Position numbers and translations under genes: made by a program. The notes below the pieces were generated by a model. It worked only from the letters and a program-made list of their open reading frames with translations, had not been told where the DNA came from and did not search any database. Shown here piece after piece: positions 15,918 to 28,359 of a stretch of DNA of 32,500 bases (the first letter of the stretch is position 1; each line of letters begins with the position of its first letter). Location: NCBI GenBank assembly GCA_937876055.1, contig CALEIW010000150.1, forward strand, positions 1 through 32,500, given 5' to 3'. The DNA is from an uncultured euryarchaeote (GTDB taxonomy: Archaea; Thermoplasmatota; Poseidoniia; Poseidoniales; Thalassarchaeaceae).

Positions 15918-16826
15918 TCAAGGTGATTCCTGAATACGATTGATACGTTTGCTCGCCTCTTGGGCCAACTCCCAGTAAGCAGTACTTCCTGGATTCGACT
16001 TATTCGGTTTCTGACCGATAACAATGGGTGCTCCATCTAGAGGGGATTCGGCGATTGCTACAAGTCGAGGAATTTCAGTCTCGAATAATCTGTCTCCGAA
16101 ATGTTTGCGAGCCTGTTCTGCAACAGTTCCTGACAATTTACTTCTCTGAACCATAGTCAATGTAATTCCGAATAATCTTAGATTTGGATTCACGGCTTGT
16201 TGTACATCACTTACAGTATTCATCAGTTGACTCATATTTTCCAGAGCATAGAATTCAGCCTGCACAGGAATTAGGACCCAATTTGAAGCAACTAATGCGT
16301 TCACCGTAAGTAATCCTAGTGAGGCTGGAGTGTCTATGATTACTACATCAAAATGGCCTACTGCGCCTTGAATCGCTCTCTGTAAACGATTCTCTCGCCC
16401 AATTCTTGTTGCTAAATCAATTTCAATTCCAGCCAAATCTAAATCCGCTGGAAGTAACCAGAGATTGTCTATTTCCAATCCCTTTGGAGGCCCTCTTTTC
16501 CGTTCTGGATTTTGTCGAACAAATGCTTCCTTCATCGACTTTGTAAGTTGCTTTGGACCGATGATACATTCCTCAATCCTGACTTCTGGACCATCAATTC
16601 CAGCTTTGAATAACTCATTCATAGTCGCCCCGAGTGATTTTTTATCGACACCAAAAGTGGTAGCAATGTTTCCTTTTGGATCGAGATCAATCATCAGAAT
16701 TTTGCGAGGTTCAATTCCAAATTCCTCGTTACCCATAGCAAGGGCAGCACCTAAATTGACTGCGGTGGTAGTCTTACCACACCCTCCTTTATGATTGACA
16801 ACTGCAATCACCACAGGTCCAGCCAT
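15918..16826 (-). CDS. ParA/Soj family ATPase
   Basis: Deviant Walker A NHKGGCGKTTTAVNLGAALA, ILMIDLDPKGNIATTFGV, VVIIDTPASLGLLTVNALVASNWVLIPVQAEFYALE. Confidence 0.94.
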   Translation of the reverse strand: MAGPVVIAVVNHKGGCGKTTTAVNLGAALAMGNEEFGIEPRKILMIDLDPKGNIATTFGVDKKSLGATMNELFKAGIDGPEVRIEECIIGPKQLTKSMKEAFVRQNPERKRGPPKGLEIDNLWLLPADLDLAGIEIDLATRIGRENRLQRAIQGAVGHFDVVIIDTPASLGLLTVNALVASNWVLIPVQAEFYALENMSQLMNTVSDVQQAVNPNLRLFGITLTMVQRSKLSGTVAEQARKHFGDRLFETEIPRLVAIAESPLDGAPIVIGQKPNKSNPGSTAYWELAQEASKRINRIQESP

Positions 16827-23041: not shown

Positions 23042-23045
23042 ATAT

Positions 23046-23237
23046 TCAGTTAGTTTTCTTGACATTGACTGCGTTTGGACCTTTTGGCCCTTCACCAATT
23101 TCGTATTCAACGGTATCGCCGTCATTGATTTCTCCTTCCACCTGACTCTTGTGGACGAAGAGGTCCTCTCCATCTTCTTGCTCTATGAATCCGTAACCCT
23201 TTATTCTGTTGAACCACTTAACTGTACCTTCAGCCAT
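23046..23237 (-). CDS. Cold-shock domain protein
   Basis: MAEGTVKWFNRIKGYGFIEQEDGEDLFVHKSQVEGEINDGDTVEYEIGEGPKGPNAVNVKK; ATG at 23237. Confidence 0.95.
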   Translation of the reverse strand: MAEGTVKWFNRIKGYGFIEQEDGEDLFVHKSQVEGEINDGDTVEYEIGEGPKGPNAVNVKKTN

Positions 23238-23303
23238 AATCCACTGCCGGAAAATCATACTACTTGATGTAGAGGGTTAGGAATTCTACCCCAAGGGCAG
23301 TAT

Positions 23304-23495
23304 TTACTTGATTCCGCCTTTTTCGTATCGACGAGTCCACTTTAATCGGCGTGGATTACGCTTGAGATTCAAGTGGTTCTTGCGTGCCTTACTATCCTTG
23401 AACCAAAAGACAGTACCATCGCGCTTGATGAACATCATTCCGGTGCCCGGTTCGATTTCTTCGTGAGTGAAATTACAGACTCTTCGCTCTGGCAT
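23304..23495 (-). CDS. rpl24e: 50S ribosomal protein L24e
   Basis: MPERRVCNFTHEEIEPGTGMMFIKRDGTVFWFKDSKARKNHLNLKRNPRRLKWT; start ATG 23495. Confidence 0.94.
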   Translation of the reverse strand: MPERRVCNFTHEEIEPGTGMMFIKRDGTVFWFKDSKARKNHLNLKRNPRRLKWTRRYEKGGIK

Positions 23496-23505
23496 TCCAA
23501 TCACC

Positions 23506-23727
23506 TCATCGAGCACTGAGGCGACGGGCCTCACGGCCTGTATCCTTCAGCATCAGAATATCGCCGATCCTTACTGGACCGACTACGTTACGAGTAATTA
23601 TGCGACCAACGTCGCGCGGGTTAGGTGCATCATTTACGCGCACCTTGACTTGTGTAGCCTCACCGGTCATACCGGTGCGGCCAACAATTTCAACGACCTC
23701 TGCGGGCCATGCTTCGACTTCTGCCAT
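23506..23727 (-). CDS. rps28e: 30S ribosomal protein S28e
   Basis: [55 protein letters not shown]. Confidence 0.95.
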
Positions 23728-23760
23728 TTGACTTCCTCCGTTATTTCCGATTCAGTTACT

Positions 23761-25948: not shown

Positions 25949-26527
25949 TTACTCAGAATCGCCGTTTAACTGTAAATAACTGGGTAAAGTAACCAATCTT
26001 TTGAGAGTACAGCGCAGAATCAATTCGTCCAAGAAGGCGGTAGTTCTGGCCAATTGCTTGACGGGAATAATCAGTTGTTCAGGCAGGTTATACTTGCGTC
26101 GCAAGATAGCGTGGGTATTGATAACAACACCACGGTATGTTCGTTTAACTTTGACAAATCCTGCAACATTCCCGAGGTCGATACCATCATTGTCCATGAC
26201 AGCACGGTCGACCAATTCATCAGGCGCCCAAAGTTGTTCGTCGATACGAATAGTATTACGCCACCTGCGTTGCAATTCTCTCATTGACTTCGAGAGTTTT
26301 ACTCCTCCATCTGGCCTTATGCTGTGCACCAACTCTTTCGATAATGGTGCATGTTCAGCTGGCTTTCGCATATATTCGCCCGCGACATCATCTACGACTT
26401 CAAGCCGCATTGATTTAACAAATTCATCTCGCGGATGAGATCTCTCTCCGGTAATCACGCCAACAAGTGTATCTCCGACGTAAACCTCTCTCTGAAGCAA
26501 TTCCTGGATTCGGTATTCTTCGCTCAT
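25949..26527 (-). CDS. PRC-barrel-like domain protein
   Basis: Two PRC-barrel-like strand patterns (REVYVGDTLVGVITGE... and VMDNDGIDLGNVAGFVKVKRTYRGVVI). Family assignment tentative. Confidence 0.6.
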   Translation of the reverse strand: MSEEYRIQELLQREVYVGDTLVGVITGERSHPRDEFVKSMRLEVVDDVAGEYMRKPAEHAPLSKELVHSIRPDGGVKLSKSMRELQRRWRNTIRIDEQLWAPDELVDRAVMDNDGIDLGNVAGFVKVKRTYRGVVINTHAILRRKYNLPEQLIIPVKQLARTTAFLDELILRCTLKRLVTLPSYLQLNGDSE

Positions 26528-26624
26528 TTTTTTCCCTCAATTTTGCGTTGGGCTAGTGCATCCCCCGTGCTTGTCCCTAGGTTGCCTTCTGCGGATTAGC
26601 ACTTATACTATCTGTTAACTAAGA

Positions 26625-26710
26625 CTGATAATCCAATTAAAAATTTCACTCTAAAATTAAAATTTCAATTGAAAAATTAAAGTCAGTTTGATTTTTTGTA
26701 TGATTATCAG
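26625..26710. repeat. Inverted repeat CTGATAATC/GATTATCAG nearly concentric with a central 12-bp palindrome
   Basis: CTGATAATC 26625-26633 and GATTATCAG 26702-26710; TTTCAATTGAAA palindrome 26663-26674 centred 1 bp from the outer repeat's axis. Confidence 0.7.
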
Positions 26711-26775
26711 AACTTCAAAATTGAACAATTCTTGAATCAAAGATCAGCAGAAATCGTACCGATTCCAATATCATC

Positions 26776-26793
26776 CAGAATCTTTAGATTCTG
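26776..26793. promoter_or_regulatory. Perfect stem-loop upstream of the aminotransferase gene
   Basis: CAGAATC (26776-26782) TTTA GATTCTG (26787-26793). Confidence 0.55.
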
Positions 26794-26850
26794 AATTTTA
26801 ATGAAGAATTCATTGAGAATATTGATGAGGCGGCCCTCGTTGGGATATTG

Positions 26851-28359
26851 ATGGCTGGGGCGTACGACCTACTTGCCGACATACGAGCAAATTCCGGAAA
26901 TGTCCGAACGGTTGGTTTGGATGATTCAGTGATACAACAATTCGTAAACAAAGATTCAGATTTGGTAAGGGCAATATCTGAAGCTCATGAGAACCATTCT
27001 GCTTTGAGGCACGAAGTTGGAGTAGCAACGATGATGTTAGATGAATCAGATCTCATCACTAAACTTCAGGAGGATTATGTCAACTTCTACAAACCAGAGA
27101 CCGTAAATCCCTACATTCCAATCGCTGCTAGAGGACCTTGGATAATCACATCACATGGTAGAGTTATTCATGACAACGGTGGATATGGTATGCTTGGCGC
27201 TGGACATGGCCCTGACCAAATTATCGATGCAATGAGCAATAACTGGGTTATGGCCAACGTAATGACTGCTTCATTTAGCCAAAAAAGATTAGCCGATGCA
27301 TTGCGAAAGGAGGTTGGGTACACAAGAGGAAGTTGTCCATTCTCTCGATTCGTGTGTCTCAATAGCGGTTCTGAATCTGTCACCATCGGAATGAGGATTG
27401 CAGATGTTAATGCTAACGAGATGACTGGAAAAGGCGGTCGCCATGAAGGTAAACCAATCAAATTGGTAGCACTTAGACAGGCATTCCATGGCCGTACTCA
27501 ACGTCCAGCTACGATTTCGGACTCATGTAAAGATGGATACCGAACTAATTTAGCAACATTCAGAGATGATAACGTACTCATTGTCGAACCTAACGATATC
27601 TCTGACTTACAAGCAACCTTTGCTCGCGCTGATGAAGAGGGCTTCTTTATCGAAATGATGGCTATGGAGCCAATCCAAGGAGAAGGTAGTCCTGGTCAAT
27701 GCATAACCCGAGAGTTCTACGATGAAGCTCGAAGATTGACTAAAGAACACGGCTCACTACTTCTAGTCGACTCCATCCAAGCAGGTTTGCGAGGCCAGGG
27801 TTGCCTATCTGTAGTCGACTACGATGGCTTCCAAGATGCAGAGGTGCCTGATTTAGAGACGTGGTCAAAGGCACTCAACGCTGGTCAATATCCTCTCTCA
27901 GTTCTAGGATTAAGTGAGCGTGCTGCTGAATTGTATGTTGTAGGAATTTATGGAAACACTATGACAACCAATCCACGTGCTCTTGAGACTGCAGTTGCAG
28001 TTTTGGATCGAATAACTCCAGGAATGCGTCAGAATATTCGTGACTCCGGTGATGAATTCCTCTCAAAATTGAGAGAACTGCAAGCGGACTATCCAGATTG
28101 CATCTCCTTAGTACAAGGCACCGGCTTATTGCTGTGCGCCGAATTAGATCCGGATAGATTCCCAGTAGTGGGATTCGGCGGAATCGAAGAATGGTGCCGA
28201 GAACAGGGATTGGGTGTAATTCATGGAGGTCAAAATGCTCTACGATTTACGCCCCATTTCGGTTTAACAAGTCCAGAGATAGATATGATTGTGGAAATTG
28301 TTCGTAATTGTCTGGATCACTTCATTGCAAAAGAGCAAGCAGCGGTTACAACGGCTTGA
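26851..28359 (+). CDS. Class III-like PLP-dependent aminotransferase with N-terminal extension
   Basis: GYGMLGAGHGPDQIIDAMSN, CLNSGSESVTIGMRIA, AFHGRTQRPATISDSC, MAMEPIQGEGSPGQCITREFYDEARRL, LLLVDSIQAGLRGQGCLS, ETWSKALNAGQYPLSVLGL. ATG at 26851 preceded by TTG at 26848. Confidence 0.88.
   Translation: MAGAYDLLADIRANSGNVRTVGLDDSVIQQFVNKDSDLVRAISEAHENHSALRHEVGVATMMLDESDLITKLQEDYVNFYKPETVNPYIPIAARGPWIITSHGRVIHDNGGYGMLGAGHGPDQIIDAMSNNWVMANVMTASFSQKRLADALRKEVGYTRGSCPFSRFVCLNSGSESVTIGMRIADVNANEMTGKGGRHEGKPIKLVALRQAFHGRTQRPATISDSCKDGYRTNLATFRDDNVLIVEPNDISDLQATFARADEEGFFIEMMAMEPIQGEGSPGQCITREFYDEARRLTKEHGSLLLVDSIQAGLRGQGCLSVVDYDGFQDAEVPDLETWSKALNAGQYPLSVLGLSERAAELYVVGIYGNTMTTNPRALETAVAVLDRITPGMRQNIRDSGDEFLSKLRELQADYPDCISLVQGTGLLLCAELDPDRFPVVGFGGIEEWCREQGLGVIHGGQNALRFTPHFGLTSPEIDMIVEIVRNCLDHFIAKEQAAVTTA

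Follow-up and report, generated by a model that had tools for sequence, protein, structure and literature searches.

A conserved predicted promoter operator of a CdpB-like gene in Marine Group II archaea, with a box common to a family of palindromic sites

Genes and repeats at the locus

We analyzed a stretch of 32,500 nucleotides (the window) from an archaeon of the order Poseidoniales (Marine Group II), whose nearest named relatives are Candidatus Thalassarchaeum / Thalassarchaeaceae. In the window, a PRC-barrel-like gene (25949-26527, minus strand) and an aminotransferase gene (plus strand) are separated by 323 bp (26528-26850), the distance originally given. The two genes are head to head throughout the genus and in most of the family. 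The gap had also been called clearly the longest non-coding gap in the window, and this is not supported: the region from 23042 to 23760 is longer (~719 bp) and has no convincing ORF. That region, the longest apparent non-coding gap in the window, lies between convergent peptidase-like and L7Ae genes.

The PRC-barrel-like gene (PRC gene below) encodes a CdpB-like protein of 192 amino acids and is the predicted target of the element described here. It is conserved across the order, with an ortholog in 58 of the 59 relatives searched. We compared a predicted model of the protein (mean pLDDT 69) to known structures using Foldseek. The best matches were PDB entries 8qzo, 3htr and 8onw, consistent with a PRC-barrel fold, and the first of these was CdpB1/CdpB2 of Archaeoglobus (8qzo; E = 6.4e-4). 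The Pfam PRC match was below the cut-off (E = 0.16), and a search of the PDB with the protein sequence gave unrelated weak matches only. CdpB1 and CdpB2 are division proteins (reviewed in PMC12186497). The window protein is grouped with them by the fold search and is of the PRC-barrel type in sequence, but its sequence similarity to them is weak and the N-terminal half of its model is of low confidence. Based on the modelled fold, the gene is probably a cell-division gene, a role that is predicted only.

A gene for a ParA/Soj-type ATPase (15918-16826, minus strand; PF13614, E = 1.8e-44) is also present in the window. At each of the 31 places tested in two families, parA has the strand of the PRC gene and lies 6-10 kb downstream of it; these places comprise loci in genomes G004, G020, G022, G036 and G058 together with 26 in family f1. 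The ParA of the window's genus has an intact P-loop (KGGCGKT).

All of the repeats that had been described in the 323-bp gap are present. There is a 9-bp inverted repeat with arms at 26625-26633 and 26702-26710, a 12-bp palindrome at 26663-26674, and a pair of direct repeats at 26635-26648 and 26655-26667. The smaller arms (26714-26725) and the hairpin (26776-26793) are there as well. We compared the gap to dinucleotide shuffles of the same 323 bp. Of the shuffles, 14% had a perfect 12-bp palindrome and 40% had a perfect 9-bp inverted repeat, but only 0.4% had a near-concentric pair of the two, by a criterion chosen post hoc. Taken singly, the repeats are thus unremarkable, and it is their nesting that stands out, by a post hoc measure.

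At the other end of the gap, a short upstream ORF (26825-26851) encodes MRRPSLGY*, with a TGA that shares bases with the ATG of the aminotransferase (26851). Most species of the genus keep both this overlap and the start context GAGAAYRTTGATG. The real start of the aminotransferase is probably the ATG at 26851, and it is possible that the short ORF serves as a leader peptide or in translational coupling.

Conservation and layout of the promoter element

We found that much of the gap is strongly conserved. In an alignment of 16 genomes of the same genus, the sequence from 26545 to 26715, including 26613-26715, was 72-93% identical to the window. Two comparisons were made in the more distant species of the genus. 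Identity was 24-35% at fourfold sites of the PRC gene and 37-45% in the adjacent sequence from 26716 to 26824, which is without strong selection. Because identity in the element is far above both of these values, 26545-26715 is under strong purifying selection. Even in four genomes with a G+C content of 60-63%, the element is kept at 28-32%.

The repeats had been expected to lack conservation in related genomes if they were spurious. The 9-bp arms and the 12-bp palindrome proved to be strongly conserved, and we take these repeats to be real because this conservation settles the question. The smaller arms and the hairpin are outside the selected element and are kept in close relatives only. Among close relatives with alignable sequence, the hairpin arms (CAGAATC/GATTCTG) are invariant and the 4-base loop is free to vary; the hairpin is lost outside this subclade.

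The conserved sequence is made up of a series of boxes, read here in the sense of the PRC gene. The distal B box (26702-26710) is GATTATCAG on the plus strand and thus CTGATAATC in this sense, and it is the right arm of the 9-bp repeat. It is followed by a distal palindromic site, AAAATTTCAATTGAAAAATT (26659-26678), that surrounds the 12-bp palindrome, the core of the distal CAATTG box, and contains the 13-mer CAATTGAAAAATT (26666-26678). The proximal CAATTG box (26634-26639) is degenerate, reading TAATTG on the minus strand, and is exactly 32 bp from the distal one. It is followed by the proximal B box (26625-26633; GATTATCAG on the minus strand), the left arm of the 9-bp repeat, and then by the TATA-box region of the PRC gene (26599-26612, minus strand; GATAGTATAAGTGC), which is conserved in the genus. 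The last feature is a conserved block (26556-26577, minus strand; GGGACAAGCACGGGGGATGCAC) in what is presumably the 5' leader of the gene. The CAATTG boxes are therefore a short way upstream of the PRC gene's TATA box.

The spacing of these boxes is nearly invariant. Where a family locus has both B-box arms, they are 78 bp apart from start to start (49 of 49 loci). We also searched 48 Poseidoniales genomes from two families for pairs of CAATTG boxes 32-33 bp apart and at most 160 bp upstream of the PRC start. Such a pair was found in 48 of 48 genomes with up to two mismatches, in 44 with up to one, and in 29 with none; in shuffled upstream sequences the corresponding means were 1.34, 0.07 and 0.00 of 48. 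A TATA-like box is at a near-equal distance in both families, and the B box has the form ATTATnnGnC across the order. In the second family, the B box is mostly between the two CAATTG boxes and not beside them. The original prediction had regarded nested symmetry as the key to the region. Nested symmetry as such is less important than that: the arms and the CAATTG boxes are conserved as separate boxes, and their arrangement differs between families.

The element belongs to the PRC gene and not to the aminotransferase. Most members of the second family have the aminotransferase at another place, and in them the CAATTG pair remains with the PRC gene. In lineages of the window's type, each genome had one strong match to a family-wide profile of 134 bp, located at the PRC gene; matches in diverged lineages were weaker. 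A scan for further copies of the 12-bp palindrome, one of the checks initially proposed, returned a single occurrence of the 12-mer (TTTCAATTGAAA) in the whole assembly from which the window comes. The element thus has a fixed place with respect to a single gene's promoter and stays with that gene, as a gene-specific operator should. Among the functions first suggested, an operator is well supported by the fixed place relative to the minus-strand TATA box, the invariant spacing, the strong selection and the retention with the PRC gene.

We also considered a genome-wide regulon and rejected it: throughout the order, the PRC gene is where the CAATTG pair is found again and again, and other matches look scattered. 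Separately, in genus g3 (G019:C115, G029:C255, G062:C1 and G070:C62) the profile gave weak matches around the PRC gene at intervals of ~3.2 kb.

The conserved leader block just downstream raises the question of whether the conservation reflects a non-coding RNA instead of DNA-binding sites. The core of the block (AGCACGGGGGATGCACT), GGGGATGCA, is conserved family-wide and its flanking bases may pair. RNAalifold, run on a shortened input, gave no covariation for such a hairpin. Against an RNA, matches to Rfam were at chance level only, the boxes are palindromic, have fixed spacing and lie upstream of the TATA box, and what is preserved is identity rather than compensatory change. We consider an RNA very improbable. 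In the second family, a hairpin-like stretch ahead of the ribosome-binding region GGAGATGGG is found in place of the leader block.

A DNA-unwinding element had also been suggested, and it fared worst. The locus is AT-rich, its boxes are repeated and loosely resemble short origin boxes, and there is one such locus per genome, all of which could fit a replication origin with an unwinding element and initiator boxes. However, there was no switch in codon-corrected fourfold-site skew at the PRC gene in any of four large contigs, from G058 (296 kb), G022 (220 kb), G020 and G004. In the complete genome of a relative, G036, the sharp switch in skew lies elsewhere, at ~1.23 Mb, and a second, diffuse switch extends from 1.96 to 0.3 Mb. 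Neither of the cdc6 genes of G036 (at 0.70 and 1.83 Mb) adjoins the locus (PRC gene at 1.97 Mb). A minimum in raw GC skew near the locus in G036 vanished after correction for coding strand. We reject an origin on the basis of the strand-corrected skew; it is the least probable of the explanations that we weighed. The whole G036 contig has two replichores by T-A asymmetry at fourfold sites (coding-strand corrected), with almost no GC signal.

Related palindromes and an RHH-like gene in relatives

The CAATTG box is part of a wider family of palindromes, AATTTTYCAATTGRAAAATT, that is spread around this locus in relatives with an RHH-like gene (described below). Many genomes have the rare 13-mer CAATTGRAAAATT close to the PRC gene. 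We counted copies of the 20-bp palindrome with up to three mismatches, leaving out the sites in the PRC promoter. On the contig with the PRC gene we found 8 of 11 copies in G046, 3 of 3 in G045, 4 of 4 in G056, 4 of 6 in G037 and 7 of 13 in G030; in the complete genome G036, 4 of 6 were within 120 kb. For the six genomes together, 30 copies were on or near the PRC contig compared to 3.2 expected (combined p = 2e-20), using a consensus drawn partly from the regions that were then tested for clustering. In the three contigs examined, sites beyond the promoter region were almost all inside ORFs.

The relatives with these clusters, which span ~25-120 kb around the locus, carry a small gene next to parA. 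This gene encodes 80 amino acids (MTSVSVSYEVRRQLN...) and follows parA in the second family (f2), genera g3, g4 and g7 and one g2 genome. It was present in 30 of 59 genomes and was 7-8 kb from the PRC gene wherever one contig holds both. The protein has a short strand segment followed by two helices, a pattern that fits a ribbon-helix-helix (RHH) protein. Matches to protein families and folds were weak and sub-threshold (VapB-type antitoxins, RHH_1 and NikR). Matches in the PDB and with Foldseek were insignificant; the only Foldseek match was NikR, itself an RHH protein (E = 9.3). Based on its sequence pattern, we infer that the gene encodes an RHH protein, and refer to it as RHH-like. A third small gene (~86 amino acids, no family match) follows it in G058 (L306, G058:C5:72011-72271), G036 and G020.

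The dispersed sites go together with this gene. We found 102 dispersed copies of the 13-mer in the 30 genomes with the RHH-like gene and 14 in the 29 without it, an association whose p-value is overstated because the genomes are phylogenetically non-independent, a limit that applies to the other genome counts too. Dispersed sites were not seen in the window's genus, and the RHH-like gene is missing from 18 of 18 genomes of that genus although the element is intact there, which counts against the reading favored below.

These findings bear on a simpler explanation, that the element is a plain operator of the PRC gene, autoregulatory or for a pathway, with no history in segregation, and that the palindromes of relatives are unrelated AT-rich motifs of coding sequence. 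In its favor, the extended motif occurs only within 1 kb upstream of the PRC gene in 79 loci of family f1. In addition, some in-ORF sites are at conserved codons (QLENxQER), and one in-ORF site falls on matching codon positions of a conserved protein in several genomes. The strong concentration of sites on the PRC contig of six genomes and the association with the RHH-like gene argue against it, as does the recurrence in several genomes of tandem sites 20 bp apart. So do the sites in G036, where 4 in-ORF sites (up to four mismatches) lie within 25 kb compared to 6 in the remaining 1446 kb, and where synonymous-codon shuffles of the same 25 kb gave a mean of 0.18 and a maximum of 2. In G058 and G020, 4 in-ORF sites were observed against shuffle means of 1.39 and 0.78 (maximum of 4 in both), a marginal excess, although relative to the rest of the contig the sites were in large excess. 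Taken together, we think that a plain operator is unlikely, although it is the strongest of the competing explanations.

A nucleoid or partition site, another of the initial suggestions, gains indirect support from relatives. Those with the pair of parA and the RHH-like gene do cluster related palindromes at this locus, but the window's genus has neither the RHH-like gene nor the dispersed sites. A present partition role in that genus is unproven because both are missing there.

An operator with a possible origin in segregation

We estimate a probability of roughly 0.6 that 26613-26715 is a promoter operator of the cdpB-like gene that was derived from a segregation-type family of sites. A sequence-specific protein, probably a dimer, would bind the CAATTG boxes 32-33 bp (three helical turns) apart. 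So bound, it would adjoin the ATTATnnGnC boxes directly upstream of the TATA box, and it is predicted to set transcription of the PRC gene. In relatives with the RHH-like gene after parA, the palindromes spread around the locus are probably SegB/ParB-type sites for segregation or chromosome organization, and the RHH-like protein may be what binds them. The window's genus would have lost, or never had, the RHH-like gene and the spread-out sites, and kept the operator. For the window taken by itself, the evidence supports a deeply conserved predicted promoter operator of a CdpB-like gene with a box common to the palindrome family.

Alternatively, the element could work as a centromere (like parS or a SegB site) in the window's genus, as a single site bound by an unrecognised loader and moved by ParA. 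The CAATTG site is under strong selection, and the ParA encoded 10 kb away has an intact P-loop. Such a function is improbable given that the genus is without the RHH-like gene, a ParB beside ParA and dispersed sites; moreover, the tightly fixed place of the element ahead of the TATA box indicates a role in transcription. A search for PF02195 in 12 genomes found no ParB near the locus and one match at the cut-off, in a 150-amino-acid frame on another contig.

The closest known counterpart of the locus in relatives is SegAB. A 2025 study of Sulfolobales reports that SegB, an RHH protein and the partner of the ParA-type ATPase SegA, binds palindromes lying mainly within genes and concentrated around segAB (PMC12284271). 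Relatives of the window's genus similarly have a parA gene followed by a small RHH-type gene, and palindromes mostly in genes near the locus. There are several differences. The sites of relatives, AATTTTYCAATTGRAAAATT, are centred on CAATTG, unlike the SegB consensus TCTAGASTCTAGA. The segA and segB genes overlap, whereas parA and the RHH-like gene do not (the gap is ~110 bp in G036). Here the locus is always beside a CdpB-like gene, and no sequence similarity of the RHH-like protein to SegB was established. Compared feature by feature, the window has a ParA-type ATPase but no RHH gene downstream of it, no gene overlap and no SegB consensus, and clustered intragenic palindromes are seen in relatives with the RHH-like gene and not in the window's genus. 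By analogy, the locus may work like a SegAB locus. Given the different consensus, the non-overlapping genes and the lack of the RHH-like gene in the window's genus, we do not claim membership.

The resemblance to bacterial ParABS is looser. Bacterial parS is TGTTTCACGTGAAACA, and the core of the sites, TTTCA..TGAAA, resembles it; ParA is nearby, and the sites of relatives cluster in one region of the chromosome. However, the centre of the sites is AATT where parS has CG in the middle, and the partner of ParA would be RHH-like, with no ParB beside it. For control of division genes by an RHH protein there is an archaeal precedent in CdrS, which regulates cell-division genes in haloarchaea (PMC7439475, PMC8406309). 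The precedent is one of function.

We know of no account of how chromosome segregation and the timing of division are arranged in uncultured Marine Group II archaea, and in the literature that we searched we found no paper on a SegAB system in Thermoplasmatota. Tentatively, and with odds that we put somewhat below even, these archaea might have a SegAB-like system with its own CAATTG-centred sites, the best-conserved of which is in the promoter of a CdpB-type gene, such that a segregation protein also times division. Some lineages, including the window's, would have lost the RHH partner and kept the promoter switch. If so, a segregation-type site in the promoter of a division gene would link the two processes directly through DNA. 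One conserved locus provides a candidate set of DNA site, ATPase, RHH-like partner and division gene, and the consensus can be tested in vitro.

In several ParA orthologs from Thalassarchaeaceae (L293-L305; G022:C4:37571-38473), the lysine of the P-loop is changed to arginine (KGGC[SA]RT). It is possible that this change reflects decay of ParA after loss of the RHH-like partner.
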